From: Flavobacteriaceae bacterium 3519-10 | Lineage (GTDB): Bacteria > Bacteroidota > Bacteroidia > Flavobacteriales > Weeksellaceae | Direction: 5' to 3' | DNA length: 64,000 nt | Assembly: GCA_000023725.1 (NCBI GenBank) | Contig: CP001673.1 | Coordinates: 1,126,342 to 1,190,341 of the forward strand | Shown: in pieces, positions 18,678 through 37,965 of the stretch | How the letters are laid out: every line of letters begins with the position of its first letter | How positions within the stretch are numbered: the first letter of the stretch is position 1 | Notes under the pieces: generated by a model | Databases searched by the model: none | What the model was told of the DNA's origin: nothing | Seen by the model: only the letters and a program-made list of their open reading frames with translations | Program-made: the position numbers and the translations under genes

Positions 18678-18931
18678 AAGCTGTCAGCAAATACAGGTTG
18701 GAACATACGTGTCTGCGGTTGAAATTATTATAGTTTTGACCAATAAAAGCGCATAATCAGTCAGGATGGGCCTTAATAATTTGTATTGGGTAGTATAAGT
18801 TATAAAATCCAGAAGCTTAGCAATTACGGAAAACCATAATTTAAGTCGGACCAAACTCTTTATTTTTATAGAAAATTTGGTTCGGACGGCGTAATTTATA
18901 AGGTGAATACAAGCAGAGAAGAGAAGAAACT
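18678..18931 (+). promoter_or_regulatory. Leader region of the motor/cytoskeleton cluster
   Basis: This 254-bp gap carries TAGTTTTG (18731-18738), a perfect match to the -7 consensus, but no well-spaced -33 element is visible. An imperfect inverted repeat follows, GTCGGACCAAA (18845-18855) with TTTGGTTCGGAC (18876-18887), around an AT-rich loop. The repeat could be a terminator for the preceding gene, an operator, or an attenuator in front of the next operon. Confidence 0.35.
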
Positions 18932-19288: not shown

Positions 19289-19398
19289 TCAATTTCGCGG
19301 GCATGACCGGCATCCAAGGTTTCAATAATGGAATTCAACCAGAAAGGATTAAAAGTTTTTTACGTTGATATTCACCCAGTTCTTAACTTGTTTATAAA

Positions 19399-20826
19399 AT
19401 GAAAAATAAAACATACGCACTAGCCCTTTTTGCTCTAACTTTTATCATTGTAATCTATTTCAGCTTTTCATCATGCGGTGGCAGTAACTTAATAGCCAAG
19501 GCCGGCTCTGATGGTGTTATAACGTGCGAGGAGTACACAGAAATTAAATTGTCAATCTTGCCAAAATCGCGTGAACTTGCAGTGTTGTTTGAAAGCCCCG
19601 GTAAAATTGATGATGAAAAGTTAAAAGATTTCATCATCAATCATGTGAATATTCGTTCAGGGAGTTTGAAATTCAATGACTGTAAAGAAGAGATCACAGA
19701 AGTAGGTCTTTATTTGGAGAATTCTCTCAGTATGATTGGATATATATCAAATGCCAGTGATTTTCAAAAGAATACCCTTGACCTTTACAGTTCATTAGGA
19801 CACAAAAATAAAGCGAGTACCTATCTCGTTAACAGGAATTTAGAACCCAAAGGAAACATACCGACTTCGGGTCTCGCGGATATCATCAGTTCGCAATCTA
19901 AATTTGTAAGTGCCGGCTCCAATATTTCAGATCTTAATAAAGTTTTGGAAAATGTTCTTGCCAATACAAAAGCGAACAATATTTCAATAATCACGTCCGA
20001 TTTCATTTATTCATTAGAAGGACAAAACCTTGTTGTGGTCGGGGGTGTTACGAAAGACCTCTTTTTAAAGAATTCAAAAAGAATTAAAGATTTATCAGTT
20101 CTTCTTATCCAAATGGATTCCCAGTTTAATGGTCTTTATTATGATATGAATAATAAACCTGTGCAGCTATCTAAAGTGAGGAGACCGTATTATTATATGG
20201 TTGTAGGAAGCTCAGATATGGTTGAGAAGTTTTCAAATATCATTAAGGTTAACAAACTAAATGGCTTTCTGAACTCCTACTATCTTACCTCAAAAAAACA
20301 AGAACCTTTTCAAAAAATTTTAGTAGGCACGGAATCAATTGGGAGGATGAAGGTAGATACTAACAACCCCAATAAGATTGAGCTATCCAAACCGGTAAAT
20401 AATCAAGTGCAATTTTCAATAGCGGTCGACCTGTCTAAATATCCTGATCAATCCAAACTTCTTGACGCTGCGAATTATAAAATAAGTCAAGGATATAAAA
20501 TTGAAAAAATCGAAAAAATTAATCCGGATAATAATCCAACTAAAGTCAATGTAAATGATTGGGTAACTTTAAAAAGCGCGACCGCGACGCATTACATCGT
20601 GGTTAAAAATGTTGGATTTCCATTAAAAAATGATTTGATTCTAAGCTTAGAAAACAATCAGCCCGGCTGGATTAAAGCGAGCTCGACTGACAATGACACT
20701 AACATTACTCAAAATCTTGACAAAACATTTGGCTTATTACATCTTGTTAACGGAATTAGTGATGCATTCGAACAAATTAACGATGGGGATAATTCTTTCT
20801 TTACCTTAAAATATAAAATCAATTAA
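19399..20826 (+). CDS. Lipoprotein with degenerate VWA-like domain (motor cluster gene 1)
   Basis: The 475-residue product has a long lipoprotein signal with lipobox FSSC (Cys 26). At residues 104-115, LYLENSLSMIGY aligns in style with the VWA metal-site motif D-x-S-x-S, but the first Asp is Glu (E107, S109, S111). IPTSGLADII (about 155-164) and ISIITSDF (195-202, D201) occupy the places of the second and third metal-site loops. VWA domains mediate metal-dependent protein contacts. The C-terminal 170 residues look beta-rich. The stop is 2 bp before the next start, making it the first gene of a tightly packed operon with tubulin-like, actin-like and stator-like proteins. Periplasmic location is inferred from the signal. 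The VWA call is mine and needs structural confirmation. Confidence 0.72.
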   Translation: MKNKTYALALFALTFIIVIYFSFSSCGGSNLIAKAGSDGVITCEEYTEIKLSILPKSRELAVLFESPGKIDDEKLKDFIINHVNIRSGSLKFNDCKEEITEVGLYLENSLSMIGYISNASDFQKNTLDLYSSLGHKNKASTYLVNRNLEPKGNIPTSGLADIISSQSKFVSAGSNISDLNKVLENVLANTKANNISIITSDFIYSLEGQNLVVVGGVTKDLFLKNSKRIKDLSVLLIQMDSQFNGLYYDMNNKPVQLSKVRRPYYYMVVGSSDMVEKFSNIIKVNKLNGFLNSYYLTSKKQEPFQKILVGTESIGRMKVDTNNPNKIELSKPVNNQVQFSIAVDLSKYPDQSKLLDAANYKISQGYKIEKIEKINPDNNPTKVNVNDWVTLKSATATHYIVVKNVGFPLKNDLILSLENNQPGWIKASSTDNDTNITQNLDKTFGLLHLVNGISDAFEQINDGDNSFFTLKYKIN

Positions 20827-20828
20827 AT

Positions 20829-21218
20829 ATGAATTCTTTTTTTGCTAACCTCTATGAACTTCTATATTATGATGCAAATTTTTCCACGGCGGTATTCAGT
20901 ACCGGCCTTTACACTGTTATAGGAGTTTTATCCGTCATCATCCCTTTTATTATTGGTCTTGTTTACTATAAAATTGTAGACAGACCCTCATTTGCAACGG
21001 TATTTATTTGGTTGGTTGCAGGTGGAATTTCTGCTCTGCTCAGTTTCCTTGTAAGTTATAACTGGGTGTATGCTAATTTGGCAGACCTTTACGAGTTCTC
21101 AACTTCCCAATTTATGACCCTAGGTCTTATCAGTGCTGTGTACAGTTTCCTGATCTATGTCCTGTTTTCATTTCTTTTTAAAAGAATCAGTATTAACACT
21201 AAAAATATCCCATTCTAA
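20829..21218 (+). CDS. Small polytopic membrane protein (motor cluster gene 2)
   Basis: This 129-residue protein has three strong membrane helices: LYTVIGVLSVIIPFIIGLVY, FATVFIWLVAGGISALLSFL and FMTLGLISAVYSFLIYVLF. A short basic end follows (KRISINTKNIPF). It starts 2 bp after the lipoprotein stop and its stop codon overlaps the start of the tubulin-like gene by one base (TAATG), so translation of the three genes is coupled. No family was recognised. Its position between a periplasmic lipoprotein and a cytoplasmic cytomotive protein suggests a membrane connector or anchor. That is inference only. Confidence 0.75.
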   Translation: MNSFFANLYELLYYDANFSTAVFSTGLYTVIGVLSVIIPFIIGLVYYKIVDRPSFATVFIWLVAGGISALLSFLVSYNWVYANLADLYEFSTSQFMTLGLISAVYSFLIYVLFSFLFKRISINTKNIPF

Positions 21219-22744
21219 TGGCTAAGTTATTTGTATTTGGTATAGGCGGTACCGGCGCACGCGTCATTAAATCTTTAGCAATGCTCATGGCTGCAGGTGT
21301 TGACACCGGGTATGACATCGTACCTATTATTTTGGATCCTGACGCTGCGAATTCTGATGTAAACCGGACAAAAGCTATTCTGGATGATTACGTAAAGATC
21401 CGGAATAAAGGCAATGATAATGGTGAGGCATCCTTTTTTAAAAATAAAATCAATCCATTAGGCGATGTAGTAAAGAATGACGATAAGGGAACGATTGGAT
21501 CAAATTTCGTGGTGAATATTGATGGGTTAGATAATGGAGAAAAATTTAAAAGTTTTATCGACCACCAAAGTCTAGATGCTGACAATAAGAAGATGATTGA
21601 TCTCCTCTTTTCGGAAGACAATTTGGAGCTCCCCTTAGATGTTGGCTTCAAGGGAAATCCAAATATTGGAAGCGTAGTGCTTAATTCTTTTGTAAACTCC
21701 AGTACTTTTCATGCCTTTGCAAATATCTTTGATAAAGACGACCGCATATTTATTATCAGCTCTATTTTTGGCGGAACCGGGTCAGCTGGTTTTCCACTTC
21801 TTCTCAAAAATATCAGAGAGGGTAATATTGGTGGAAATAATTTTGCTTATTTAAAGGATGCTATTGTTGGTGCTATTTCTGTACAGCCCTATTTTAAGAT
21901 TGAAAAGAGTGAAGGGGCAGAAATAGATTCACATACTTTTATTTCTAAAACTAAATCTGCACTGTACTATTATGATCATTTTATATCCAAAAGTGACTCA
22001 CTCAACGCCACTTATTATATTGGTGATGACAGTACCGGAGTTTATGAGCATAATGTAGGTGGAACTGTTCAGAAAAACAATGCTCATTTCGTGGAATTGG
22101 CTTCTGCACTGGCAATTGTAGATTTTGCTAAAGATCAAAGTCTGCAGTCTGCTAACGGTAAAGCATTGAATCCTGTGTACAGGGAGTTCGGGGTTAAAGC
22201 TCATGAGGGGTTTTTAAATTTCAGTACAGTTTCGGATCTGACCTCCAACATGATTAAAAAACCACTCGCTCAATATTTTTATTTTGATCTCTTCATCAAT
22301 AAAATGCTTACTGAGACCATGAGCGATCCCTATTCTCAAACCAAAAGAGGAGCTCACTTTGACAAAAGTTTTACTTCAACTCAATACTTTAATACCCTGA
22401 AATCATTTAACCGGGCATTCCGGGTCTGGCTTGGTGAAATGAAGGAAAATACGGTTTCTTTTGCACCTTTCAGTATTAATGTGGAGCAAGATTCTAAGGG
22501 CAACATCAATGATTTTTCTTATTCTGCAAGTAGTGAAATTTACACCTATATTGACGGTTCAGTTCCTAGTAAAGATGGCTTCCTGGGATTAGGAAAGAAA
22601 AACTTCGAACTTTACAGACATACACTTAGTACGGTTTCTGAGAAGGAAGTAAAAATTTTTGTAGGAGCAGAAGACCGGTTTCTTAAAGTCTTCTCTCTCG
22701 CTACGCAGGAACTTCTCAAAGAGAAAAATCTTATCAATTCTTAA
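21218..22744 (+). CDS. Tubulin/FtsZ-like GTPase (motor cluster gene 3)
   Basis: The 508-residue protein opens with a Rossmann-type strand and the glycine loop FVFGIGGTGARVI (residues 5-17). At about 185-191 it carries GGTGSAG within FIISSIFGGTGSAGFP, the tubulin/FtsZ phosphate-binding signature (GGGTGTG in FtsZ). The interval between the loops, longer than in FtsZ because of an acidic insertion, is as in the 'tubulin-like' bacterial family. No signal or membrane helix is present, so it is cytoplasmic and could polymerise with GTP. The C-terminal part (about 300-508) has no recognised domain. The gene overlaps the upstream gene by one base and is 10 bp from the giant actin-like ATPase gene. 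Family membership is fairly sure; polymerisation is not. Confidence 0.82.
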   Translation: MAKLFVFGIGGTGARVIKSLAMLMAAGVDTGYDIVPIILDPDAANSDVNRTKAILDDYVKIRNKGNDNGEASFFKNKINPLGDVVKNDDKGTIGSNFVVNIDGLDNGEKFKSFIDHQSLDADNKKMIDLLFSEDNLELPLDVGFKGNPNIGSVVLNSFVNSSTFHAFANIFDKDDRIFIISSIFGGTGSAGFPLLLKNIREGNIGGNNFAYLKDAIVGAISVQPYFKIEKSEGAEIDSHTFISKTKSALYYYDHFISKSDSLNATYYIGDDSTGVYEHNVGGTVQKNNAHFVELASALAIVDFAKDQSLQSANGKALNPVYREFGVKAHEGFLNFSTVSDLTSNMIKKPLAQYFYFDLFINKMLTETMSDPYSQTKRGAHFDKSFTSTQYFNTLKSFNRAFRVWLGEMKENTVSFAPFSINVEQDSKGNINDFSYSASSEIYTYIDGSVPSKDGFLGLGKKNFELYRHTLSTVSEKEVKIFVGAEDRFLKVFSLATQELLKEKNLINS

Positions 22745-22754
22745 AGGTAAAAAC

Positions 22755-25700
22755 ATGGCAAAAGTATTCAGATTATTTGACGATATAGATGTGCAACACT
22801 GGGAAAACACCAACCAAATAGGACCAGCACAGATCAATACAATTGGTGATGTTTCCGGTGGAATTATGAGTAAAGATCCTACCTCTATTCCGTCACCTTT
22901 TGCGAGGATGGATTTGGCTAAATCGGCGTTTAAAAATGTGGTTGATTTAAAGAATGTAGATGGGCAAACTGTTTTTAATAAAATTGTTTCAGATAATTTT
23001 GATCTGATGGAACTGCTTTTTCACAGCAATGAAATTGGAGGAATTGAGATTACATCTTGGGATGCAAACCAAAGCGTTGCACATTTAATTGGGAGCAACA
23101 ATAGAAAGCACCGATTGCTGGGAAAAACTTTGCAGTTATTCATCAACCAAGACCGAATATTTGTTGACAACCCGAAGATCTTTATTTTCAGCAGAAATCA
23201 TAAAATACTGGGAGGAACATCGCCATTGTCAGTTGTATTTACTACAGGAAACTCTTTGAGAGACACCAATATTCAACTTACTGAGCGAGCTTTGTTTACT
23301 TCGCCCTATCAGCCGTTATATAAAAGAGACGCCGATTTCCAGAAATATGTATATAGTTTAGTCTATAATAATACAGCATTCGGTAATAAATTTCTTGAGC
23401 TTAAAGAATATCTTGATTATTCATTAAAAATTTTAGATAACGATAATCACAGTCTTTATCTGGAATTACAGAATATTAAGTTAGATCAAAATTTCTACAG
23501 TAATACTTTCGCAGAATTAAATGGGAGTGTGGATGGCAATACGGTAACACTTTTTAATATACCGTTAAGAAAATCTAAAGGGACAGTTTTAGAGAGTGAC
23601 TTTTTTATCGACACGAATTTACCGCAGCCCAACGGAATTCCGTTGATTTTACAAAACGAATATACTTTACCGTTAAATTATATTGGAACAACCCGATGGA
23701 CGGAAAACAATATTAATGTTCCATTTAATGACGAACGAGCATTACATGAAAGGACACTACCTGGATTAATTAAAAAATATCCTTATAAGACGGTCGACGA
23801 TTTTCTTGAACCTGTGATTTTCAGGCTTCCATATGAACTGGACTCTGCGAAATTCCTGTCCGTGTCAGCAGTTGAAAACAAGTCATTTCTGTTGCCGCTA
23901 AAAAGTACATTTTTTAAATACTTTACAACTGATGATCTTTTAAACAGAAGAGTGGGCGGACAACCAATGCTCAGTATGGAAGTTCTGCAAAATTCCGTCA
24001 CCGTGCAGCTTAGAATACCGATAAAAAAACAAGGTCATTATATTACATTATCCCGTAAATATAAGGTAGACGGGGAGATTGATATTTCAAGAAATATCGG
24101 TGCAGTAAAAAATCTGTTTATGAATGTGGGAGTCAGTCCATTTTTGCAACTGGAGAATTCCGACGCCAGCGATCACTACCGAATCGGTTTGTTTAATATG
24201 ATTGACCGCGGGGTTAATTTAAGTTTTTCCTACCAAGGCAAAGCAACACCTGTTGAAAATTCTTATGTAAGGACGTCTGAAGTGTTTTTCAGCAGTCGGT
24301 ATTTTGTTCTTAACCATAAATTTGATGCTGTAAAAGTTGAATTTGACGGCTACTCTGCGCTGTTAATTCCAAAGCTGCGAAAACAATCAGAAGGCCCGAG
24401 AAGTTTTACGTTTGGAGTAGATTTTGGAACAACGAATACTCATATAGAGTACAAAGAGGATCAAGGAAGGCCTATTCCATTTACAATCCACCCAGAAGAC
24501 TTACAAACTGTTTACACTATTTCGAATATATCTCAGTCTAATATCGAAGTCTCCAGATTAACTGAATTAAAAAAACTCAGTGAATATGAATATATACCAG
24601 AGTTTTTACGAGGTGACCTCAATGAGTTTCCTATCAGGACTGTCATTTCAAACTCGGCAAAATTAGGAGTAGCAGATGTTAAATTTTCACTTTCCCAAAT
24701 GAGTATTCCGTTTAATTACATCCTTGAAGATTCGCTTGAATCCAATACCTATACACAGAATCTGAAATGGGGAAGTAATCAGGTAGATGCACTGCATGCA
24801 GATAAAATACGACTATTTTTAGATGAATTATTTTTCCTGATGAGAAATAAGGTTCTAACCAATAACGGAAACTTATCGTCAACCAAGATACACTGGTCCT
24901 ATCCATTAAGTATGCCGATAAGACAAATCAGTGACCTGGAAAATTTTTATACCAACCTATACAAAAAGTATATCTCCAGTACACAATCTACCAGCAATGT
25001 AAAAAAATATAATGAGTCTATTGCACCCTTTGAGTATCTGAAAACAGAAGGTGGGCTGGTTGCTTTTACAAAGCCTGTTGCGTTGTTGGATATCGGGGGT
25101 GGAACTACAGATATTGTGATATACAAAAATAACAATGCTGAAAAAATTACCTCATTTAGATTTGGAGCTAATAAAATTTATTCTAATTCTAATTCTGGTA
25201 TACATGGAAATGGTTTTACTAAAGAAATTGAAAAATTTAAGGAAGGTAATAATCTTAGTCCAATTTTCTTAAGTATATTAAATAAATTTATGACTTCTGA
25301 GAACATGACGGAAGGAATATCTTTATTATTTTCTGCAGACACCAATATCCGACATAAAGATACTGTATCAAATAAATTCAGTGATCAATTGCGCTCAAAT
25401 GAAAACCTAAAATCTGCTTATGTATTCTACTATGCAGCCATTGTGTATCATTTAGCAAAATTCATGAAAGCGAATAATTACGATATGCCCGCAAAAATAA
25501 TTTTCTCGGGAAATGGATCCAAAATTCTTAACATTATTGATAATAATGACAGTGCTCCTATACTAACCAAAATATCGACCTACGTTTTTGATAAGGTTTA
25601 TGAAGCCACAGGTAGCAATCTCATTTCTATAGAAAAGCGGAATAATCCTAAGGAAATGACGGCGAAAGGTTTAACATACACAAATAATTTTGCACAGGAC

Positions 25701-26054
25701 ATCAATGAAATGAAATCCACCTTACTTGGGACGCAAGACAATACGCTACTTAACTATAATTCTTCAGTTACTTATGAGACATTAAACAATAAAGATGCTC
25801 AGTCAGTAAATGCCGAAGTGAACGATTTTATTGATCTTTTTGTAGAAATGTACAGTCATCTCAATACAGAATACTTTGATGTTGACGCCCAATTATTAAA
25901 AGGATTTAAGGAAACATTAAGCAGAGATACCCTTAACTATATTATGAAAGGAATTGAAGAAAATAAAGGAAATGATCTTAAAATCACGGACAGTCTTTTC
26001 TTTTATCCTTTAGAAAATTCACTATATCAATTTGTACAGTATGTTAATAAATAA
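22755..26054 (+). CDS. Giant protein with Hsp70/actin-like ATPase domain (motor cluster gene 4)
   Basis: The product has 1099 residues. The C-terminal half holds an actin/Hsp70-type nucleotide fold: phosphate-1 motif FGVDFGTTNTHIEY (about 552-565), phosphate-2 motif VALLDIGGGTTDIVIY (about 773-788) and adenosine motif KIIFSGNGSKIL (about 913-924). The N-terminal 540 residues are unassigned and rich in beta strands and aromatic residues. No membrane segment is present. ATP-dependent assembly or conformational switching at the membrane is a fair inference. An actin-like and a tubulin-like protein encoded next to each other in one bacterial operon is uncommon. The 3' end overlaps the next gene by 14 bases. 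Confidence 0.82.
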   Translation: MAKVFRLFDDIDVQHWENTNQIGPAQINTIGDVSGGIMSKDPTSIPSPFARMDLAKSAFKNVVDLKNVDGQTVFNKIVSDNFDLMELLFHSNEIGGIEITSWDANQSVAHLIGSNNRKHRLLGKTLQLFINQDRIFVDNPKIFIFSRNHKILGGTSPLSVVFTTGNSLRDTNIQLTERALFTSPYQPLYKRDADFQKYVYSLVYNNTAFGNKFLELKEYLDYSLKILDNDNHSLYLELQNIKLDQNFYSNTFAELNGSVDGNTVTLFNIPLRKSKGTVLESDFFIDTNLPQPNGIPLILQNEYTLPLNYIGTTRWTENNINVPFNDERALHERTLPGLIKKYPYKTVDDFLEPVIFRLPYELDSAKFLSVSAVENKSFLLPLKSTFFKYFTTDDLLNRRVGGQPMLSMEVLQNSVTVQLRIPIKKQGHYITLSRKYKVDGEIDISRNIGAVKNLFMNVGVSPFLQLENSDASDHYRIGLFNMIDRGVNLSFSYQGKATPVENSYVRTSEVFFSSRYFVLNHKFDAVKVEFDGYSALLIPKLRKQSEGPRSFTFGVDFGTTNTHIEYKEDQGRPIPFTIHPEDLQTVYTISNISQSNIEVSRLTELKKLSEYEYIPEFLRGDLNEFPIRTVISNSAKLGVADVKFSLSQMSIPFNYILEDSLESNTYTQNLKWGSNQVDALHADKIRLFLDELFFLMRNKVLTNNGNLSSTKIHWSYPLSMPIRQISDLENFYTNLYKKYISSTQSTSNVKKYNESIAPFEYLKTEGGLVAFTKPVALLDIGGGTTDIVIYKNNNAEKITSFRFGANKIYSNSNSGIHGNGFTKEIEKFKEGNNLSPIFLSILNKFMTSENMTEGISLLFSADTNIRHKDTVSNKFSDQLRSNENLKSAYVFYYAAIVYHLAKFMKANNYDMPAKIIFSGNGSKILNIIDNNDSAPILTKISTYVFDKVYEATGSNLISIEKRNNPKEMTAKGLTYTNNFAQDINEMKSTLLGTQDNTLLNYNSSVTYETLNNKDAQSVNAEVNDFIDLFVEMYSHLNTEYFDVDAQLLKGFKETLSRDTLNYIMKGIEENKGNDLKITDSLFFYPLENSLYQFVQYVNK

Positions 26055-26832
26055 AAAGACACTCTATTTGGGAGTTGGCGCATCTATCGTATTTGGGTGT
26101 AAAGAAACTGTTCCCCAAAATTTAGATCAACAATCCGGAATCAGCGATATTTTAATAAATGGTTTATTATTGTTGATTTCTTTTCTTATTCTTGGTGTTT
26201 TTGTTATAAAAATTATATCTATTAGGAAGAAGAGAAGTAAACGACCAACAAACAATGATAACGAAAATCATAATTTCTCTAGTATACAAAATTCATATGC
26301 TGACCACAATGCGGAGATAGTTTTATTAAATAAAAACCTTCGTAATCTACAACAAGAGTTGAATGCAAGCAAGCAAAAATATAAAGCGTTAGAGGATGAA
26401 AGTTTAGAATTACGAAAAGAGTTAGAGGCGACCAAATTGCAAGATCTGCAGGTAGATAGTAACATAATTACAAGCCCCTTACCGACAGTGGAAAAAGTGA
26501 TAAAGGATAATGTTATCAAGCTGAAATACTCTAAGTTCGCTGACGAGAAAGGAGTTTTTCCTCATACCCATTTAACCACATCTGATGACGGTTCATGTTA
26601 CTACCAGTTAACGATTGACGAGGAAAAGAGGACCGGTCAATTCGAACCTATTATATCCGAACTCAATATGCATAGTTTTAAAAACAATAAAAGTATGCTG
26701 CTCTTTCCTTATTGTGAAATTGTTAATGTCTTAGATTTTTGGAGTAATATAAACATACTGGAACCCGGTTCTTTGAAACCCAGTGATGTAGAATGGATTG
26801 TTGAAAATAAATGTAGAATTGAACTGGTATAA
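26041..26832 (+). CDS. Membrane protein with coiled coil (motor cluster gene 5)
   Basis: The ATG at 26041 (a TTG at 26032 is also in frame) gives 263 residues. The N terminus is moderately hydrophobic with a Cys (SIVFGCKET), which could be a weak lipoprotein or signal sequence. It is followed by a clear membrane helix, ILINGLLLLISFLILGVFVI, and a very basic stop-transfer stretch, RKKRSKR. Residues of about 95-145 form a coiled coil (heptads in LLNKNLRNLQQELNASKQKY). The C-terminal domain (about 160-263) is soluble and unassigned. The gene overlaps the end of the ATPase gene and is 2 bp from the MotA-like gene. It might link the cytoplasmic cytoskeletal proteins to the stator complex. Confidence 0.72.
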   Translation: MLINKKTLYLGVGASIVFGCKETVPQNLDQQSGISDILINGLLLLISFLILGVFVIKIISIRKKRSKRPTNNDNENHNFSSIQNSYADHNAEIVLLNKNLRNLQQELNASKQKYKALEDESLELRKELEATKLQDLQVDSNIITSPLPTVEKVIKDNVIKLKYSKFADEKGVFPHTHLTTSDDGSCYYQLTIDEEKRTGQFEPIISELNMHSFKNNKSMLLFPYCEIVNVLDFWSNINILEPGSLKPSDVEWIVENKCRIELV

Positions 26833-26834
26833 TT

Positions 26835-28469
26835 ATGACACAAATATCCCCTTTAGTTATTTTAGAAATCTTACTGTTAGCTGGTATAATATTTTTTCAG
26901 TTCAGGTCATTTTTAGCGACGAAACTAAAAATTGAAAAACTCAGTACCATTATACCGCAGCTTAAAGATTATAGTCTTGAAAAATTTAGTTTTGACCACT
27001 ATTTAATCAATACAAAATCCCAGGAGATTATTAATAATCCCAGCGAATATGACGGTAAATCCGCATCAAATGAAAATGAGGAGATTTCAGAATTATTTGC
27101 AGCGCCTAATTATGACGTTGTTTTAGTATCGGTTAATCTTATTACATTAAAAAATGGAGGAAGCACTATTTTTAATAAGATAAAAAAAGCCCTTAATTCT
27201 TACCTGCTTAAAAATAAGGGATCAGCCGCCGACTTTAATTTAATGCAGGATGTTGTCAACAGAAATGTTGATGCCGAGGATGATGAAATTTCTCACGGAC
27301 TAAACATTCCCTTATACTTGGGGTTGATGGGAACTATGGTTGGGATTATTGTGGGGTTAATTAATCTGACAGTTTCTGACACCGTAAAAGGAGATTCTTT
27401 TGATCCTTCAGCGTTTTTAATTGGTGTAGCAATCGCAATGGGAGCCAGTTTTATAGGGTTGTTATTCACCGTTCTCAATAACAGCAGCTATCAGCGTGCA
27501 AAGAAAAATGTTGAGCTGAACAAAAATGATTTCTATACTTTTTTGCAGACGGAATTGATGCCTGTAGTTAATGCGAGTGTTTCAAGTGCTGTTTATACCC
27601 TTAAAGATGTGGTGGTTAATTTTAATAAAGACTTTTCAAGTAATCTGACCGTATTGAACAAACTGTTTGGGAAGAGTTATAAGGCTCTAGAAGGGCAAGC
27701 CTCCATTTTAGATAAATTGGAAGAGATGGACATTAAGCAGTTTGCTGCCGCAAATGTCAAAATTTTAAAAGAGCTGTCCAACGCAACAGAAAAGATTCAT
27801 TCTTTCCAGCTTTACGTGGACTCCTTAAACACAATGATGTCTGAGACGAACAGAGCTACCATGTCTATCCGAGAACTGTTGAATGGTGTAAATAACTTCA
27901 GTGATCTGGCAGTAAAGTTGGAACAGAGAGTTGATGAATCCGCCCATTTACTACAATTTGCGACTGAGCATATCACTTTCCTAAAAGATAATTCTTCACA
28001 GGTAAAAAGTTTAAGTAATGATTTTACCGATTTCACTGAAAAATCTATGAGAACATTGGAGAATGTAAGCAGTGATGTGCTAACTAATTTCAGAAAATTT
28101 GCGGAAGACGAATCCGAAATTCTTAAAAACAGTATTAAAACAAGACCAGATCAGTTTGAAAAACTCAATCAATTAGATCGATTAGAAAGTATTGAAAATG
28201 CAATCGGCGAAACGAACACCAATATACTTCATTTGGGTGAGCATAAACTGGAAGTACAGCACGACCGATTGATTAAGGCTCTGAGTGAGGTGGAAAATTC
28301 TGTAAGGAATATAAAAATAAGTTTAGGAAGGGACACTGGTCTATTGCCGGAAGCTGACCGAGAAAAAATGCTCAATCTCGTAGAGGCACAGATGGATTAT
28401 CTGAAGAGTAATGCATTTACCAGACTTTTCCCTTACAAAATGGTAAAAAGAAGAACTAATGGCCAGTAA
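26835..28469 (+). CDS. MotA/TolQ/ExbB-like channel protein with coiled-coil tail, ZorA-like (motor cluster gene 6)
   Basis: A 544-residue protein. Helix 1 (ILEILLLAGIIFFQF) is near the N terminus. After a soluble insertion come paired helices IPLYLGLMGTMVGIIVGLIN (about 158-177) and AFLIGVAIAMGASFIGLLFTV (about 193-213). The G-x-x-GTMVGI and IGVAIA-GAS-IGLLFT patterns are those of MotA/TolQ/ExbB stator subunits. From about residue 230 to the end it is almost entirely helical with heptads. This matches ZorA of the Zorya anti-phage system, which joins a MotA-like channel to a long intracellular coiled-coil tail. It overlaps the MotB-like gene by 11 bases. Proton- or sodium-driven rotation is expected from the family. 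Confidence 0.85.
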   Translation: MTQISPLVILEILLLAGIIFFQFRSFLATKLKIEKLSTIIPQLKDYSLEKFSFDHYLINTKSQEIINNPSEYDGKSASNENEEISELFAAPNYDVVLVSVNLITLKNGGSTIFNKIKKALNSYLLKNKGSAADFNLMQDVVNRNVDAEDDEISHGLNIPLYLGLMGTMVGIIVGLINLTVSDTVKGDSFDPSAFLIGVAIAMGASFIGLLFTVLNNSSYQRAKKNVELNKNDFYTFLQTELMPVVNASVSSAVYTLKDVVVNFNKDFSSNLTVLNKLFGKSYKALEGQASILDKLEEMDIKQFAAANVKILKELSNATEKIHSFQLYVDSLNTMMSETNRATMSIRELLNGVNNFSDLAVKLEQRVDESAHLLQFATEHITFLKDNSSQVKSLSNDFTDFTEKSMRTLENVSSDVLTNFRKFAEDESEILKNSIKTRPDQFEKLNQLDRLESIENAIGETNTNILHLGEHKLEVQHDRLIKALSEVENSVRNIKISLGRDTGLLPEADREKMLNLVEAQMDYLKSNAFTRLFPYKMVKRRTNGQ

Positions 28470-29136
28470 AAAAAATGATATCTTTTGGATAAGCTATGCA
28501 GACTTACTTTCCAGTTTATTTTTTATCATCCTTGTACTTTTTGCCATAACATTCTTTAAATATAACCAGAAAGTAGAAAATCTTAAAAAAAAACTAGAGG
28601 TGTTTCGTTTGGTTGAAGAGAGTCTGGGACCATTAAAAAAGAAAAAAGACATATTTAAATATGAATCCGATTACAAAAGATTTGTTTTAGCAGAAGAAGT
28701 AAGTTTTAATATCAGTAAAACCGACATAACCCCAACTGATGTAAAGGACTTTCCGGCAAAATCAGCATATTTATTAAAAGTAGGTAAAGGTTTAAAAAAT
28801 ACATTAGATACCATCGCTTATCATAGAACTAAAAAAGAAGGGTTGAAGGACGTTTCGTACCTATTAGTAATCTCTGGTTATGCGTCGAAACTTTCGGTCG
28901 CCAATGAAGCTGAAGATTACAATTTAAGTTACGACCGCGCATATAATCTTTGGAAATTCTGGAAACGAAACGGTATTGATTTCGAAGACCTTAAATATAA
29001 AGGTTTTGTCGACCTGCAAATTGCGGGGAATGGTTGGGGTGGGATGGGAAGGATCTCATCGAAAAACAATAGTGAAGAAGAAGGGAACCAAAGATTTATC
29101 ATCCAGATTATTCCCAAAACAAAAAATATTGATTAA
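28459..29136 (+). CDS. MotB/OmpA-like stator protein, ZorB-like (motor cluster gene 7)
   Basis: The 225-residue protein has a short cytoplasmic start and one membrane helix with the motif FWISYADLLSSLFFIILVLF. Asp 15 sits where MotB carries its essential ion-binding Asp. A charged linker follows, and then an OmpA-like peptidoglycan-binding region (ISGYASK, then NLSYDRAYNLWKFW) that would anchor the complex to the cell wall. With the overlapping upstream MotA-like gene it forms an ion-driven stator pair. ZorB has the same composition. No ZorC, ZorD or ZorE gene follows; instead a lipoprotein nuclease does. Confidence 0.85.
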   Translation: MASKKNDIFWISYADLLSSLFFIILVLFAITFFKYNQKVENLKKKLEVFRLVEESLGPLKKKKDIFKYESDYKRFVLAEEVSFNISKTDITPTDVKDFPAKSAYLLKVGKGLKNTLDTIAYHRTKKEGLKDVSYLLVISGYASKLSVANEAEDYNLSYDRAYNLWKFWKRNGIDFEDLKYKGFVDLQIAGNGWGGMGRISSKNNSEEEGNQRFIIQIIPKTKNID

Positions 29137-29152
29137 AAGTGCTTCCATTGAT

Positions 29153-29770
29153 ATGTCTATTCATAAAATAAATTTTAAATTACTTTATCTTACTGTATTT
29201 ATAATTTTCACTTTTTGCCAGTCAAAGAGTGAAACAGAAATTATTCGTAGAAGCGACAGAAGTCCTGGTTTGGCAGCGCAGTCAGTAGAAACTCGTGAGA
29301 AGGACTTCAGGCAATCAGAAAAAACTGTAGGCAACCCCACACCGGCTTCCACAGAAACAACTAAAACCCCCTATCTGGTTTATAAAGTTGTGGATGGAGA
29401 TACTTTTTGGATGAGAGATCAAAATAATCTGGAAACCAAGGTAAGACTCATAGGAATAGACGGTCCTGAAACCCGTAATACGAGGAAAAAGAAGAAAGGT
29501 TATTATGGTAATGAAGCGAAAGTATATTTGCAGAGTTTGATATTAGACAGGTACGTGTTTATTGAACAGGATGTTCGGTCACGTGATCAATATGGCAGAT
29601 TACTGGCGTACGTGTACACCGAGAATAATTTATTTGTGAATGCAGATTTGATAGCGAACGGATATGCTGTAATAATGTCGGTGCCTCCTAATGTAAAGCA
29701 TCAGGATGAATTTTTTAACTTACAGCAGCAAGCGAGGAAGAATAGGGCAGGAATGTGGGGAAGAGAGTAA
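29153..29770 (+). CDS. Staphylococcal-nuclease-type lipoprotein
   Basis: From the ATG at 29153 the product is 205 residues, with a lipoprotein-like signal (FIIFTFCQSKSE). A frame open from 28976 overlaps the MotB-like gene and is not used. After a polar linker the SNase domain begins: YKVVDGDTFWM, VRLIGIDGPET (catalytic Arg and Asp), NEAKVYLQSL, then RDQYGRLLAYVY (second catalytic Arg) and RKNRAGMWG at the end. SNases cut DNA and RNA in a calcium-dependent way. Localisation outside the cytoplasm is predicted. It is 16 bp after the stator gene, so it is likely cotranscribed and could be the effector of the cluster, although secreted SNases are common by themselves. Confidence 0.85.
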   Translation: MSIHKINFKLLYLTVFIIFTFCQSKSETEIIRRSDRSPGLAAQSVETREKDFRQSEKTVGNPTPASTETTKTPYLVYKVVDGDTFWMRDQNNLETKVRLIGIDGPETRNTRKKKKGYYGNEAKVYLQSLILDRYVFIEQDVRSRDQYGRLLAYVYTENNLFVNADLIANGYAVIMSVPPNVKHQDEFFNLQQQARKNRAGMWGRE

Positions 29771-29791
29771 TGTTGTGGACTACCATTAGTC

Positions 29792-30038
29792 GTTGTGTGT
29801 AAGCTCCCCCGAAAACAGTACGGTTAAAAAGTGAAAAATTAACTAATTTTAAATCGTTATTAAGACATTGAAAAAGAGCACTTTCAGTCCTGAAAAAATT
29901 GAAGGTGTTTTAAAGAGTTTGCAGGGGGCCGCAGTGCTGATATGCTTGTCAGTGAAAATAGGGTGCTGCGGTTCCTGACCGCTTTTCAATATCCAACAGC
30001 GACAGCAGCAAAATATCAAGAAAATATTCTGCTTTTGA
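29792..30038 (+). mobile_element. Decayed IS3-like element remnant 1
   Basis: CTCCCCCGAAAACAGTACG begins a stretch that recurs at 34268-34440 in the same orientation with many substitutions. It leads into KKSTFSPEKIEGVLKSLQ, which resembles the start of an IS3-type OrfA transposase with the ATG changed to TTG; the frame then breaks. It lies directly behind the nuclease gene that ends the motor cluster. Confidence 0.45.
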
Positions 30039-30206
30039 AATGAACTGAGAAGGGGGGAGCTCACAATAACCAAGGATGACATTAAAGCCCAGCTTAAGAT
30101 GGGCATAATCGTGAAGCTGCATCAGTATGGCTATCCACCGATTACGGAGGATGAGGTGTATAAAAATGTAGTGGAGCAGGCGGAGAATTTTAAGCGGAAC
30201 CGATAG
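30039..30206 (+). pseudogene. C-terminal remnant of a type I restriction subunit (HsdR-like)
   Basis: An open frame ends at the TAG at 30204 and reads KMGIIVKLHQYGYPP, then EVYKNVVEQAENFKRN. This resembles the C-terminal DUF3387-type tail of HsdR, with a K-x-L-x-K/Q-YGYPP core and a final V-x-EQAE helix. About 55 residues remain; no start codon or upstream HsdR sequence exists because an IS remnant lies directly before it. It is a trace of a former type I restriction system at this site. Confidence 0.45.
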
Positions 30207-30255
30207 GTGGCTTATCTTCATAGAAGATTCATTAAAACAATATCATTTCTAAACT

Positions 30256-32763
30256 ATGAAGGCAAACGAATTGCAGATTATCAACTTTTTGCAGGCTCCC
30301 AATGTGCAGTTTGTAATCCCGGTGTATCAGCGGAATTATGACTGGACGAATTCAGAATGCCGGGAGCTGCTCAATGATATAATATCTGTGCAGGAGCAGG
30401 ACAGAGGTACCCACTTTATTGGCAGCATTGTATTCGTGCATGAAGGCACGTACAGTACCAGCGAAGTAAAGGAATTGGTAATCATCGACGGGCAGCAGCG
30501 TTTAACCACCATCAATATCCTGTACGTTGCACTTTACCGTTTTGCCAAAGAAAACAGCATGGCCGATGATGCCGAAAGACTCTACAACATGTATCTGACT
30601 AATCAGTATGTTAAAAACGAATCAAGTAAGTTAAAATTAAAACAGACCGATGCCAATTCGATGGCCTTCAAAGCAATAATGATGGGAACGGAGAGTGCAT
30701 CAAGTACCTTTTCTAACGTTACGGAGAACTATAACTATTTCAGAAGCATCATTACTGAGAACAACTTCGATCTGATTCTGGGAGGCCTGAACCGGCTTAT
30801 TTTTGTTGAAATCTCGCTGGAGCGCGACAAAGACGACCCACAGCGGATTTTCGAAAGCCTGAACTCGACCGGTTTAGATTTATCACAGTCTGACCTGATA
30901 AGGAATTTTATTTTAATGGACCTTCCGCCAAAAGACCAAAACAGAATATTTGAAACCATTTGGAACCCCATTGAAGAAAATGCAAAGGACCTTATAAAAC
31001 AGAATTCGTTGGTCTCCGAATATATACGGGACTACCTGACATTGCGTAACAAGAAAATTCCCAATAAGAATAAAGTATATACGGAGTTCAAGAGTTTATA
31101 CGCGAACAAAAAAGACGAAGCATTCCAGCAGGAACTTGAAAACATAAAGTCCTTATCGGTTCACTATAAAATGTTTATCAATCCGTCCACCGTATTAGAC
31201 CCGGGCATTAAAAAAGAGCTCGATTATATCAACCGGCTGGAGATCAATGTGGCATATCCCTTTTTGTTGCAAGTCTTTGAAGACGCTGAAAACGGCTTGC
31301 TGTCAAAAGAAGATTTAATCCGGGTGCTCAAATTGATTCAGAGCTATGTTTGGCGAAGGTTTATTGTAGGTTTACCTACCAATGCGCTCAATAAAATATT
31401 CATGACGCTGTACTCCGAGGTAGACGTAGAAGAATATTACGATTCAGTAGCAAAGGCGTTGATTAAAAAAAAGGGGAGTGGCAGGTTTCCGACCGATGAA
31501 GATGCAAAAACGGCCCTCCGCGACAAAGACCTCTACAACACCCAGCCCAAGAACAGAAATTACCTGTTTGAAATGTTGGAGAATTACAACAACCGCGAGT
31601 TCGTAAACACAAACCAGGAACAAATTACGATAGAACATATCTTCCCGCAGCATCCCAGCGACAGGTGGAACGCAGACTTAACAGCTGAAGAATTTGTTGC
31701 TTTTAAGGAGAAACACCTTAATACCATTGGTAACCTTACACTTTCAGGTAACAATGGTGCGTTAGGTAACAAATCGTTTTCTGAAAAAAAGGAGATGAAT
31801 GTGGCTGGCAGTGAACAGGGCTACCGGTATAGCAGATTGTGGCTGAATTCATATTTAAAATCCATTGACAGCTGGAGCATTTCAAATTATGATGAAAGAC
31901 AGCATATGATCTATGAGAGATTTTTAAAAATATGGGAATTTCCTGCCGTAGAAATTCCAGAGGCTGAAGACGCCGAGGAACAGAACATTTTTGATGCAGA
32001 AAGTCCCACACATAAAAAACTGGAGTTTTTTATTTTCCAAAATACCAGAGCTGAAATGGATTCGGTGGCCCAAATGTATTTTTATGTGGTGAGAAATCTG
32101 TACGAAAAGAACTCTCAGCTGCTGCTCGGCAATCAGGAACTTTTAAAAATAACAAGAAATGCTCACGATTTCCGGGCACCGCAGGAAGTGATTAATGGTT
32201 GGTTTATCGAATCCAATATTGACAGCAACTCTAAATTCTCAGTACTGAAAAGGTTGCTTACTTTATTTGAAATGGAAGATGAACTCTACGTAAAATACCT
32301 CACCGGACCGGGCGTGCAAGTCGAACCCAACAGGTTTGCGATACGCAAAAAATACTGGCAGCAATTACTGCCCCTTATTAGCAATAACGGCTTTTTTACG
32401 AATGTTAATCCTTCAAAAGAACATTCCATAAGTACAGGGGCTGGCATTGGTGGCTTATCATATACCATGGTAGTAACACGTTCCGATATTCGCATCGAAT
32501 TAACCATTCTTACCGCCAGCCAGGAAAAAAACAAAATGTATTTCAACAGATTGCTTAAAAATAAAGAGGTCATAGAGCAGGCTTTTGGAAAGCCACTCGC
32601 GTGGGAGGAGTCGCCCGAGAATAAAATGAGCCGTATCAAATACGAACTCTTAGAGGTGAGTATATTTAATGAATCTGACTGGGGGAAAATGAATGAGTTT
32701 TTTGTGCAGAATATGCCTAAGTTTGAACAGGCGTTAAGACCGTTTATAAAGGCGTTGAAGTAA
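30256..32763 (+). CDS. DUF262-DUF1524 (GmrSD-type) restriction-like protein
   Basis: The 835-residue protein fuses the two GmrS/GmrD halves. The N-terminal DUF262 domain has IPVYQRNYDWTNSEC (about 21-35), IGSIVFVHEG and IIDGQQRLTT, and it hydrolyses nucleotides in GmrSD. The DUF1524 nuclease half has the HNH-like IEHIFPQHP at about 458-466 followed by NTIGNLTLSGNNG. The C-terminal 250 residues end in a region resembling DUF4268 (NKMSRIKYELL, then DWGKMNEFF). GmrSD is a type IV restriction system that cuts glucosylated hydroxymethylcytosine DNA of T-even phages; other single-chain relatives are also anti-phage. The gene stands alone between two copies of a decayed IS end. Target specificity is unknown. 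Confidence 0.88.
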   Translation: MKANELQIINFLQAPNVQFVIPVYQRNYDWTNSECRELLNDIISVQEQDRGTHFIGSIVFVHEGTYSTSEVKELVIIDGQQRLTTINILYVALYRFAKENSMADDAERLYNMYLTNQYVKNESSKLKLKQTDANSMAFKAIMMGTESASSTFSNVTENYNYFRSIITENNFDLILGGLNRLIFVEISLERDKDDPQRIFESLNSTGLDLSQSDLIRNFILMDLPPKDQNRIFETIWNPIEENAKDLIKQNSLVSEYIRDYLTLRNKKIPNKNKVYTEFKSLYANKKDEAFQQELENIKSLSVHYKMFINPSTVLDPGIKKELDYINRLEINVAYPFLLQVFEDAENGLLSKEDLIRVLKLIQSYVWRRFIVGLPTNALNKIFMTLYSEVDVEEYYDSVAKALIKKKGSGRFPTDEDAKTALRDKDLYNTQPKNRNYLFEMLENYNNREFVNTNQEQITIEHIFPQHPSDRWNADLTAEEFVAFKEKHLNTIGNLTLSGNNGALGNKSFSEKKEMNVAGSEQGYRYSRLWLNSYLKSIDSWSISNYDERQHMIYERFLKIWEFPAVEIPEAEDAEEQNIFDAESPTHKKLEFFIFQNTRAEMDSVAQMYFYVVRNLYEKNSQLLLGNQELLKITRNAHDFRAPQEVINGWFIESNIDSNSKFSVLKRLLTLFEMEDELYVKYLTGPGVQVEPNRFAIRKKYWQQLLPLISNNGFFTNVNPSKEHSISTGAGIGGLSYTMVVTRSDIRIELTILTASQEKNKMYFNRLLKNKEVIEQAFGKPLAWEESPENKMSRIKYELLEVSIFNESDWGKMNEFFVQNMPKFEQALRPFIKALK

Positions 32764-33294
32764 AGCTTACGGTACAAAGAAAGCAGGTTAGATAAATACG
32801 GCGTAACTGATATAGCTATCATTTCAGAAGGTCATGTAGATTGAAACGTTGAATTTTGCACCAGTTATCGGGAAAAAAACGTCTTCGATATTAGATTAGT
32901 TCTTCAGGTTTATACGCTCTACATCAAATAATTACAAAACCATAGCTTGCTCGATAAAAAGAAATTGCGAGAAATTCGGTGTGGGGAAACCTGTACTTAT
33001 CATCTCCCAATTTTATGGTGAATTGTGGTGCGATAACATTAATGAACTACACTAGCAGATGCAATAACGGGCACAGGACAGCTCCGGCTCATGAAAGGTA
33101 AATCTTTGAGAAAGAAAATAAATCATTAGTTTTGATGTAGCACGGATCAATTTGAAAGTTCAGGAAGTATTTTAGGGAATTTACTAGTGTACTTTCGCTC
33201 GGAATGAGTGGTGTACTTTGTTCGGAATAATCAACAGCTAATTAAGCTTGATTTTTATGGATTATAGATTTGGAATTTATAGAAAAAATTGAAG
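32764..33294. other. Intergenic region with IS21-like end repeats
   Basis: No gene is visible. Two direct repeats, GTGTACTTTCGCTCGGAAT (33187-33205) and GTGTACTTTGTTCGGAAT (33211-33228), resemble the multiple terminal repeats at ends of Bacteroidota IS21-type elements. TAGATTTG (33265-33272) is a perfect -7 element for the next gene, giving a leader of about 16 bases. The first 400 bases hold nothing recognisable. Confidence 0.45.
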
Positions 33295-34089
33295 ATGGCT
33301 GAAAAAATATTTCATTACTGTACGATTGATACACTTGAAAAAATTCTTACCAACAAAACAATACGTTTCTCGAGATTTGATCTCATGGATGATCAAACGG
33401 AAACTGATGGTCTGCCGGAAATGTTGAAGAAAAACTATTTTCTTTCATGTTGGGTTTCGGACCGCAAGGAAAAGATTCCGCAATGGGCAATGTATGCTCC
33501 TAGGGGTGTACGTATCGAATTGCCGATAAAATGGTATAAAAAATTTCCTATTCCTGTTGTTGGTACAGATCAGTTTATAGAAAAAATCCCTGTCGATGAT
33601 GATCATCCCGGTCGTAATACCTTCTTCCCCAAACCTTTTAAAGAATGGTTTTTAGCCAGTCAAGGATTTTACTTTGTACCTCCTCTGGATGAAGAAGATG
33701 GCTTTGTGACAAAGGTGATATACAGCGAGAATTTTTCAAAACTCAAACAACAGCACTGGAAAGCAAATGAAGATGGCACCAGCATATCCTTAGCTCATCA
33801 GGCAGCACCTATAAAATTTAAAGATGACTACTGGTCGTTTCAGGATGAAGTGAGATTTTATCTAACAGCGGGATGTAGACACGAAGATAGACATCTGTTG
33901 CCGGATTACATTGACCTACCTGTTGACGAGCAGGCCCTCAAAAAAATAAAAATTCGACTTTACCCAAATTGTAAAAGTGAGGACTGGAAAGCGGTAAAGA
34001 ATCTCATTTCTGATAAATTCTCAACCTTAGACTCCAAAGACATAATTGAAAAGAGTGATCTCGAAGGCAAATATTTTCCCAAGGTGTAG
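33295..34089 (+). CDS. DUF2971-like protein
   Basis: The ATG at 33295 gives 264 residues; a TTG two codons earlier is in frame. The N terminus, FHYCTIDTLEKILTNKTIRFSRFDLMDDQTE, followed by FLSCWVSDRKEKIPQWAMYA, follows the DUF2971 pattern (Y-x-x-x-x-T-L-x-I-L-x-N-x-T-I-RFS, N/DD, then a SCW and a W-x-x-YA motif). DUF2971 proteins have no established function but are frequent in defence islands and prophages. No membrane segment or nuclease motif was seen. The upstream IS21-like ends and the downstream IS relic suggest arrival by transfer. Confidence 0.75.
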   Translation: MAEKIFHYCTIDTLEKILTNKTIRFSRFDLMDDQTETDGLPEMLKKNYFLSCWVSDRKEKIPQWAMYAPRGVRIELPIKWYKKFPIPVVGTDQFIEKIPVDDDHPGRNTFFPKPFKEWFLASQGFYFVPPLDEEDGFVTKVIYSENFSKLKQQHWKANEDGTSISLAHQAAPIKFKDDYWSFQDEVRFYLTAGCRHEDRHLLPDYIDLPVDEQALKKIKIRLYPNCKSEDWKAVKNLISDKFSTLDSKDIIEKSDLEGKYFPKV

Positions 34090-34267
34090 GTGACCTTTAA
34101 TAATGCATTATCCAGTGATTACAAATGCTCTAGACATACTAAAAATTGGTATTGATAAAGGAACCAATTTAAATTATTAAGAAAAATACCTCGACATCAT
34201 TAGACCTTTTGGTCATTTCTTAGCTGAATCAGGTCGCCATTTTTACCTGATGACTGGCTTTTTTCTA

Positions 34268-34440
34268 TCTGTTGTGTAAATTCCCCCGAAAACAGTACGA
34301 TTACAAGTATAAAATTAATTAACTTTAAACCGGAATCAAGACATGGAAGCATATTCCATTCTGCAAAGATTGATGGAGTTTTAAATGAGTTTACCGGAGA
34401 TCACAGAATACTGAACGTGAGGAGTTATCGGAGGTTTCCA
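34268..34440 (+). mobile_element. Decayed IS3-like element remnant 2
   Basis: This is the second copy of the sequence at 29792, in the same orientation. It has TTCCCCCGAAAACAGTACG, then the blocks AAATTAATTAACTTTAAA and AAAGATTGATGGAGTTTTAAA that parallel the first copy. The coding part is destroyed. The two copies bracket the GmrSD-like and DUF2971 genes. Confidence 0.45.
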
Positions 34441-34449
34441 CAATAGTTG

Positions 34450-36345: not shown

Positions 36346-36527
36346 TACGAGGGTTTTGATATAATTATGCTTAATAAAAAGGTGATCGCGAAAAACTGAA
36401 GTAAGTGGTCTACCTTTTCGACAGTTTGTAAATGTTTTTCATGAAATTTGCACTTGCCAACCGAAAACGGAATCAGGCGCTGCTGAATAGCAACCTGCGA
36501 GGGATAAATTCGGTAGTAACTTTACGA

Positions 36528-37085
36528 TTAAAGAAGTTTGATGTTTTTTAGTCCGTTAACTAACAAATTGATTAAACTTTTTGATGCAGTTTCACTTATT
36601 AGCCCGCTTATCGTCATTTCTGTTAGCTTTCCCAGAAACAATTCGTACCATTTCTTTTTCCCAAGATAATAATGGTCTTTTAGATCCTCAATATTATCAA
36701 AGATAATTTCTTGGCCATATTCCAATTTCTGCAATTTTTGTACAATCTGGTTGGTCAAATTGTCTGCAAATAACTTTTCTTGAATTGTAAAAGTGTCTTT
36801 GTTAATATTTAATCCCAATCTTTGCAATTCTTGCTGCAGATAATATATGATTAGTTTTAAATTGTAATTCTTTGGGCAACTTCTTAAATCACTGCAGACT
36901 AAAAGATGTTCTTCATAAACTTCATTTGTATTTTCAAGGAGGACAGTTAGAAATTTGATTTTGTCTCCTTTGTTATCAATATCATTAATCTTATTCCTAA
37001 CGATTTGTAAAACCTCTCCATGAGGTTTTGACCGTCGAATATTATAGGTAAATATTTTAAATGCTAAATCTGCAATTATTTCCAT
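36528..37085 (-). CDS. Hypothetical AT-rich protein in defence island
   Basis: A 185-residue soluble, helical protein starting MEIIADLAFKIFTYNIRRSK. Features seen are two cysteines in CSDLRSCPKNYN, a long amphipathic helix near QEKLFADNLTNQIVQKLQKL, and a C terminus rich in Leu, Ile and Asn. I do not recognise a family. It is separated by 147 bp from the HNH gene upstream on the same strand and by 182 bp from the HEPN gene downstream, distances that match the cassette-like spacing of the island. It could be an accessory or immunity factor. Confidence 0.62.
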   Translation of the reverse strand: MEIIADLAFKIFTYNIRRSKPHGEVLQIVRNKINDIDNKGDKIKFLTVLLENTNEVYEEHLLVCSDLRSCPKNYNLKLIIYYLQQELQRLGLNINKDTFTIQEKLFADNLTNQIVQKLQKLEYGQEIIFDNIEDLKDHYYLGKKKWYELFLGKLTEMTISGLISETASKSLINLLVNGLKNIKLL

Positions 37086-37928: not shown

Positions 37929-37965
37929 TGCGTTCTTTTGGAAAAGGTTAAAGCTCGCGAGCCAA

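Follow-up and report, generated by a model that had tools for sequence, protein, structure and literature searches.

The stretch of DNA analyzed here, which we call the window, comprises 64,000 nucleotides of the Flavobacteriaceae bacterium 3519-10 genome, which is 2.77 Mb in a single contig (CP001673.1; the window spans positions 1,126,342 to 1,190,341). It carries on its + strand an operon of seven genes, g1 to g7, in which neighboring frames abut or overlap and the last two genes encode the A and B subunits of a putative ion-driven stator. The first gene, g1 (19399..20826), is an open reading frame (ORF) for what looks by eye like a lipoprotein, whose alignment contains a vWA-like motif, ENSxSMxGY, and an invariant second Asp. 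It is followed by g2 (20829..21218), an ORF of a conserved family for a small membrane protein with hydrophobic segments seen by eye, and by g3 (21218..22744), a GTPase gene assigned to the FtsZl1/Tubulin_2 family by Pfam, family profile, and a GGTG..G loop motif. The 1099-amino-acid product of g4 (22755..26054) has a predicted actin/MreB/Hsp70 ATPase fold at residues 549-983 (AlphaFold2 model and fold match), and g5 (26041..26832; start codon uncertain, TTG 26032 or ATG 26041) is an ORF whose family has a signal or transmembrane (TM) segment, coiled coil, and a conserved C-terminal segment. Subunit A is encoded by g6 (26835..28469), whose 544-residue product of the MotA/TolQ/ExbB/ZorA superfamily has a helical cytoplasmic tail of ~310 residues (ORF, Pfam, model, tree, and alignment), and subunit B by g7 (28459..29136), with 225 residues of MotB/ZorB type, Asp15, and a periplasmic OmpA-like domain (ORF, Pfam, profile search, and alignment); these two ORFs overlap by 11 bases. 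About 16 bases after the end of the B gene, still on the + strand, begins an accessory gene for a nuclease of the SNase family that by eye has a lipoprotein-like signal (29153..29770, taking as its start the ATG before the signal), which matches Pfam SNase (E=6e-25) and, below cut-off, an NCBIfam thermonuclease (1e-27), and which is also present at one related locus (L007). The original prediction had recognized the MotA-like and MotB-like ORFs at 26835-29136, with the tubulin-like (21218-22744) and actin-like (22755-26054) genes before them and the SNase gene (~29153-29770) after them, and this layout is borne out.

Subunit A just misses the Pfam MotA_ExbB cut-off (E=3.6e-4, 20.7 bits, cut-off 22.9). 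Its model, built from 33 sequences, has a mean predicted local distance difference test score (pLDDT) of 70. When residues 1-250 of the model are compared with solved folds, the scores are Z 13.1 for TolQ, 12.9 for ExbB, 11.3 for ZorA, and 8.4 for PomA, values that for helical proteins may reflect merely a common arrangement. The top 24 rows of this comparison are all TolQ, ExbB, or ZorA (Z 13.1 to 10.3), the first unrelated helical row follows at Z 10.0, and PomA falls among unrelated rows. Two Thr residues on two channel helices (TM3/TM4 of MotA), Thr167 and Thr212, are invariant (33/33). After the first TM helix and ahead of the channel core, the model places a pair of strands, 46-54 and 97-105, an insert that several relatives lack in the alignment; an extra cytoplasmic beta-sheet has been named as a feature of Zorya (PMC12505986). 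The ~310-residue tail that had been noted earlier is predicted to be mostly helical from ~230 to 531, at low confidence. In subunit B, the Pfam OmpA match is under cut-off (E=1.8e-3), and the helix FWISYADLL contributes Asp15, which is invariant in 38/38 aligned sequences, as is the OmpA Arg (Arg160 in B). The column matching GHTD has Asp in 0/38 of these B subunits, whereas GHT[DSN] is present in 11/11 Bacteroidota ZorB examined, with D in 8. On the predicted fold of A, its channel core, and the TM Asp of B, the pair belongs to the 5:2 ion-driven stator superfamily, and it would assemble in that ratio.

Family profiles and a tree place this pair closest to ZorAB. When a B profile is searched against all PDB sequences, the leading matches are ZorB type I (7.6e-14) and another ZorB (3e-7), then Campylobacter MotB (4e-5) and ZorB type II (4.2e-4). 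The best channel match of the corresponding A profile is type II ZorA (5.9e-4), which is weak by itself because coiled-coil proteins rank higher. A core profile of A without the tail gives 24-33 bits with 9/11 ZorA and 11 bits with two divergent ones, compared with 16-18 bits for two TolQ-type proteins, 10 for E. coli MotA, and 8 for E. coli ExbB. Zorya loci were defined by ZorB score and neighbor gene sizes; 11 of the 14 fetched were used in the A tree, and L132, L138, and L140, with broken or short A genes, were left out. The tree, of 104 columns and 85 sequences (33 from the operon family, 1 associated with DarT, 11 ZorA, 7 flagellar MotA, 31 Bacteroidota ExbB/TolQ-type, and E. coli TolQ and ExbB), separates the operon family plus ZorA from the rest with 100% ultrafast bootstrap. 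Grouping of A with TolQ/ExbB is rejected by the approximately unbiased (AU) test (p 0.002) and by the Shimodaira-Hasegawa (SH) test as well. Grouping with flagellar MotA is rejected by AU (p 0.025) and left unrejected by SH (p 0.109), and a family clade that excludes ZorA is not rejected (AU p 0.40). An ordinary TolQ/ExbB or flagellar stator was rejected on the tree and AU, with SH alone sparing MotA. A search of 296 Bacteroidota genomes with the A profile gave, at E up to 1e-6, three family members and three genes outside the family, the latter at ZorB loci; at E up to 1e-3, the profile missed the A genes of Zorya loci L135, L142, and L143. Weighing the tree and the family profiles above single-sequence searches and fold scores, we conclude that A and B are probably of the ZorAB lineage.

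Two PADLOC results were set aside in reaching this assignment. The ZorB1 model (PDLC00609) matches in 369/395 Bacteroidota genomes at E up to 1e-5 and in 5/14 control genomes; its 15 top matches score 128-205 bits, followed by a gap down to about 70, and window B scores 42.5. This model is therefore nonspecific at such scores, its match to window B was rejected as evidence, and ZorB1 profile matches of 70 bits or less are no basis for calling Zorya. The matches of A to LmuB (1.4e-4) and DruC both fall in the helical tail and were likewise rejected.

The genes that precede the stator recall a set described by Makarova and Koonin in 2010, in which the FtsZl1 GTPase occurs in predicted operons with vWA, OmpA-domain, and membrane proteins (PMC2875224). 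By its sequence, g3 is a member of this Tubulin_2/FtsZl1 family: its own Pfam matches, to Tubulin (E=3.7e-4) and Tubulin_2 (E=5.6e-3), are both under cut-off, Tubulin_2 (PF13809) matches 24/25 aligned g3 members (E up to 0.01, best 2.2e-10), and the GGTG loop is invariant (25/25). By its model, residues 549-983 of g4 form an actin/MreB/Hsp70 ATPase fold (mean pLDDT 83.7; best fold match MreB 2wus, Z 13.0 over 287 residues at 3.5 A). The actin-fold residues D556, G558, D779, G781, G782, and D786 are kept in 31/31 sequences, Pfam FtsA is matched under cut-off (E=7.5e-5), and the N-terminal ~540 residues match no named family. In the g1 family alignment, S111, M112, and D201 are present in 22/22 members, and the first motif residue is E in 19/22 and D in 3/22, the two cyanobacterial relatives having D instead of E. 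The g5 protein is 19% identical to a relative in genome G083. A PHROGs search gave nothing beyond weak coiled-coil-type matches of g5, and the tubulin gene had no match among phage records.

To follow the operon across genomes, we took the best 80 of 227 genome loci by tubulin similarity to the window, 17 of them from Hymenobacter, and added a few others; the closest named related locus is that of Kaistella sp. SH40-3 (L009), of the window's own genus. Among the 67 fully flanked loci are the window itself, a contig from a virus collection, and a few bins that carry names from other phyla (Williamsia, Oscillibacter). The loci are thus not independent of one another, nor are all of them strictly from Bacteroidota, and they also served as the source of the family profiles. 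All seven genes occur in one order in 57/67, with gene-by-gene counts of 66 for the vWA-like gene, 66 for g2, 67 for the actin-like gene, 65 for g5, 61 for A, and 57 for B. Because the same five genes precede the stator in the same order in so many loci, the pairing of stator and core is more than chance.

The five-gene core is also found without the stator in two Bacteroidota genomes (L200, L201), and a similar core occurs beyond the phylum, where our sampling consists of plasmid records. A Synechococcus NIES-970 plasmid (L091) has vWA-like, tubulin, actin-like, and g5-type genes by profile and a small membrane protein at the g2 place by eye. It has no stator of the operon family; an ordinary ExbB/ExbD pair, next to a TonB-receptor gene some 10 kb upstream, is not matched by the A profile. 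On a Gloeothece plasmid (L090), the tubulin and actin-like genes are recognized by profile, and the g2 place and a vWA-like gene on the other strand by eye; no stator is seen, but the record ends just after the g5 place. In three loci from Prevotella and relatives (L038, L045, L049), the core is intact, the B gene is absent, and A is reduced to short pieces (179-191 amino acids in L038 and L049), as if the motor were decaying. The converse, a stator without the core, is seen on a Parabacteroides distasonis record called a plasmid (NZ_OY725823.1, L123:11953-16075), where A (3e-81) and B (4e-71) of the same family stand directly after DarT and DUF6939/NADAR-like genes and near a site-specific integrase, with no tubulin or actin genes. 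This may be a stator-linked toxin-antitoxin defense module. That each part is found without the other would be expected if the stator genes were merely neighbors of the FtsZl1 core and worked independently of it, but the shared order in 57/67 loci and the abutting or overlapping frames in the window make this very improbable.

Upstream of the operon, several further genes were noted. A response regulator and a TPR histidine-kinase-like gene lie near it in the window by eye (14859-17167, - strand), and in Sphingobacterium humi two genes of similar look immediately precede g1 (L017:5569-7958, + strand). The closest relative has a trypsin-like gene ~31 bases ahead of g1 (L006:9421-10539), and the two ORFs upstream of window g1 gave no trypsin-like match.

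Downstream of the stator is a slot of variable content. B is followed at no more than 300 bases by a gene on the same strand in 45 of the 61 loci that have B by this count, and this first downstream gene is lipoprotein-like in 42/45, compared with 278/1098 ORFs of the same loci, by a crude lipoprotein rule and with a control that includes the operon's own genes. Of 93 downstream ORFs, we scanned 72, at most three per locus, the others being short or, in several cases, truncated where the locus ends. The scanned proteins include 18 trypsin-like, 13 SNase, 11 retropepsin-like protease, 7 EEP nuclease, 5 Endonuclease_NS, 3 transglutaminase, and 2 S9 peptidase members; Hymenobacter L144 has an S9 peptidase gene. 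Gene order suggests that the machine may coordinate with exported hydrolases. The same lipoprotein counts, together with the exported or membrane-bound look of g1 and g5 by eye, could instead point to an energized transport or surface-presentation device, in which the motor would move co-encoded lipoproteins through the envelope in the manner of TolQR, ExbBD, and GldLM processes; a reviewer of the FtsZl1 paper, Jekely, suggested transport or signaling in 2010 (PMC2875224). We consider such a device improbable, as no outer-membrane channel was recognized by Pfam in the window operon, A groups away from TolQ/ExbB, and the hydrolase families vary by locus, so that no single cargo is evident.

The operon is distributed as a fixed trait in one lineage but looks mobile in another. 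The tubulin gene is present in 61/61 genomes of one genus, identified as Hymenobacter because L182 and H. perfusus L078 match at 100%. We looked at the full operon in two of them (L144, L145) and in 17 named Hymenobacter loci, all 17 of which have a TPM-domain-like gene nearby, recognized by a short string. The A subunit is found in 67/80 genomes of Hymenobacter's family. In a sample of the phylum, the tubulin gene occurs in 8/296 genomes and the A family in 3/296. Defense-like genes lie in the window at 30256-44098, beginning with a GmrSD/DUF262-type gene that borders the operon and continuing with PDC-S73, AbiTii, and OLD-like genes. A search for the borders of this island by flank similarity in six same-genus genomes gave none. 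Also in the window, 8 kb from the stator and on the other strand, is an HNH protein (37233-37928, - strand) with a ZorE2 match of 27 bits. We rejected it as a detached ZorE, the match being confined to its HNH part.

These neighbors bring up the possibility of a new Zorya-type anti-phage system, in which the stator would sense damage to the envelope as DNA is injected, the rod would trigger tubulin/actin NTPase (nucleoside triphosphatase) effectors, and an exported nuclease or protease would act in the periplasm. The ZorAB lineage of the stator, the patchy presence of the operon in the window's genus, the GmrSD-like, PDC-S73, AbiTii, and OLD-like genes, the variable slot of nucleases and proteases, and the same-family stator beside DarT and NADAR-like genes in the Parabacteroides record all speak for such a system. 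On the other hand, fixation across a genus is unusual for defense systems, and here the tubulin gene is in every Hymenobacter genome and A in most of the family; moreover, no known effector is present, the downstream hydrolases look exported, and the PADLOC ZorB support is nonspecific. We therefore regard this system as unlikely, though well short of negligible. Because the tubulin gene is universal in Hymenobacter as against 2/36 genomes in the window's genus, dedicated phage defense is not the best reading, and a trait fixed in the one and mobile-looking in the other favors a cellular role that lineages can acquire and lose.

The reading we prefer, with a probability of about 0.5, is that the operon encodes a motor-equipped, envelope-spanning variant of the FtsZl1 machine, whose inferred role is most likely a constitutive one at the cell envelope and not dedicated phage defense. 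In such a machine, five A subunits would surround two B helices, and OmpA-like domains or lipoprotein partners would hold B in the periplasm. Ion flow past Asp15 of B and the Thr residues of A would rotate the A ring together with the long rod that it extends into the cytoplasm, which would measure about 45 nm if the helices are unbroken. The rod may then drive or signal to the tubulin-like and actin-like NTPases under the inner membrane, its coupling to g3/g4/g5 being modeled on the ZorA rod and nuclease recruitment in Zorya. Outside, the machine would cooperate with the exported lipoprotein hydrolases encoded just downstream, and its likely job would be envelope maintenance, remodeling, or the energized deployment of surface lipoproteins. 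If so, this suggests that motors of the ZorAB lineage also serve a cell-envelope machine, and such a motor outside Zorya bears on the origin of Zorya's own. The further proposal that the ion-driven motor turns the rod against the paired tubulin-like GTPase and actin-like ATPase, and that the Hymenobacter-fixed machine is the ancestor or a sister source of Zorya's motor, we hold to be rather unlikely.

A number of results weigh against the machine we prefer, and they concern the motor, its partners, and its surroundings. The A fold scores, with the caution given above for helical proteins, slightly favor TolQ/ExbB over ZorA, the A tail is modeled mostly as long helices at low confidence, and the grouping with ZorA depends on just 104 columns. 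Taken alone, window A has exbB2 as its first NCBIfam match (1.1e-6), window B has MotB (4.4e-6) ahead of ZorB1 (2.3e-4), and the PADLOC models listed for window A at E up to 1 do not include ZorA. Thus, the ZorAB composition that the original prediction gave to the pair is upheld by the tree and by the ZorB matches that lead in the PDB, but not by these single-sequence searches. Anchoring of B is uncertain, as its family is without the peptidoglycan-binding Asp. The interaction between rod and NTPases is a proposed one, and the vWA fold of g1 is based on motif and context, since Pfam VWA_2 matches 1/22 members and a comparison of g1 with PDB sequences gave no vWA match. The motor itself is not obligatory, because motB is absent in 10/67 loci and motA too in 6 of those. 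Finally, the tubulin gene is rare in the window's genus, and defense genes adjoin the operon at 30-44 kb, as expected of a defense system.

We next compared the operon with systems already described. Ter clusters are brought to mind by one genome (G323; L203, 4172-15107) in which a divergent Tubulin_2-like gene (3e-33), with neighbors that are core-like by size and order, is followed by three TerD genes. Unlike Ter clusters, the scanned proteins of the window, L006, and L008 contain no TerD match. In another genome (G422; L202), a divergent Tubulin_2-like gene is accompanied by a protein that looks like TerD by eye and has no Pfam match. With TolQR, ExbBD, and MotAB/PomAB, the window pair shares the A-subunit fold and NCBIfam's best names, but the corresponding tree groupings are rejected, and the E. 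coli A subunits have 230-295 residues as opposed to 544 in the window.

Zorya resembles the window in having an A subunit with a long cytoplasmic tail and a B subunit with a TM Asp and an OmpA-like domain, and ZorAB is nearest both in the tree and by the B profile. Defense by Zorya is reported to require the flow of ions as well as the periplasmic domain of B and the tail of A, and the tail of ZorA has been proposed as a nuclease recruiter (PMC11890865). The window operon differs from Zorya in its tubulin-like and actin-like partners, in a B subunit without GHTD, in the fixation of its tubulin gene in Hymenobacter, and in having no adjacent ZorC/D/E: PADLOC listed no ZorC, ZorD, or ZorE model for the nine proteins from 19399 to 32763 (for the ninth, among the best 25 of 31 families), as the original prediction had said. 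Its suggestion of a different cytoplasmic partner for the stator is also supported, but not in the sense of a Zorya that lost its effectors; we rejected that account, since the partner genes are those of the independently described FtsZl1 operon family and their core also occurs stator-free. It follows that ZorB profile matches alone do not signify phage defense.

The closest comparison is with the FtsZl1 operons, whose authors proposed membrane remodeling (PMC2875224). The Figure 1 legend of their paper includes Bacteroides caccae, and a reviewer mentions FtsZl1 in Bacteroides capillosus (PMC2875224). Like those operons, the present one has a Tubulin_2-type GTPase (24/25 members) and an OmpA-type gene (motB in 57/67 loci); its vWA-like gene, going by the motif, would be a third common element. 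The OmpA proteins were described there as beta-barrel porins, adhesins, or enzymes with peptidoglycan-binding domains, P-loop GTPase and protein kinase genes were said to be frequent but not universal, and the main text of the paper makes no mention of MotA, MotB, ExbB, TolQ, a stator, or Hsp70 (PMC2875224). In the window, unlike FtsZl1 operons as published, ten proteins from 17709 to 29770 gave no Pfam match to a P-loop GTPase or protein kinase, the OmpA-type gene encodes a predicted stator B with an A partner, and the core includes a predicted actin-fold ATPase; among the papers listed by keyword searches of an open-access library, none was seen to link the Tubulin_2/FtsZl1 family to a stator. 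A reviewer had raised the question in 2010 of how an FtsZ-like protein of the cytoplasm might function together with periplasmic partners and partners of OmpA type (PMC2875224). A B subunit of MotB/ZorB type, with its helix across the inner membrane and its pairing with a motor ring, would be a concrete answer to that question, and the function of the uncharacterized Tubulin_2 family thereby becomes testable.

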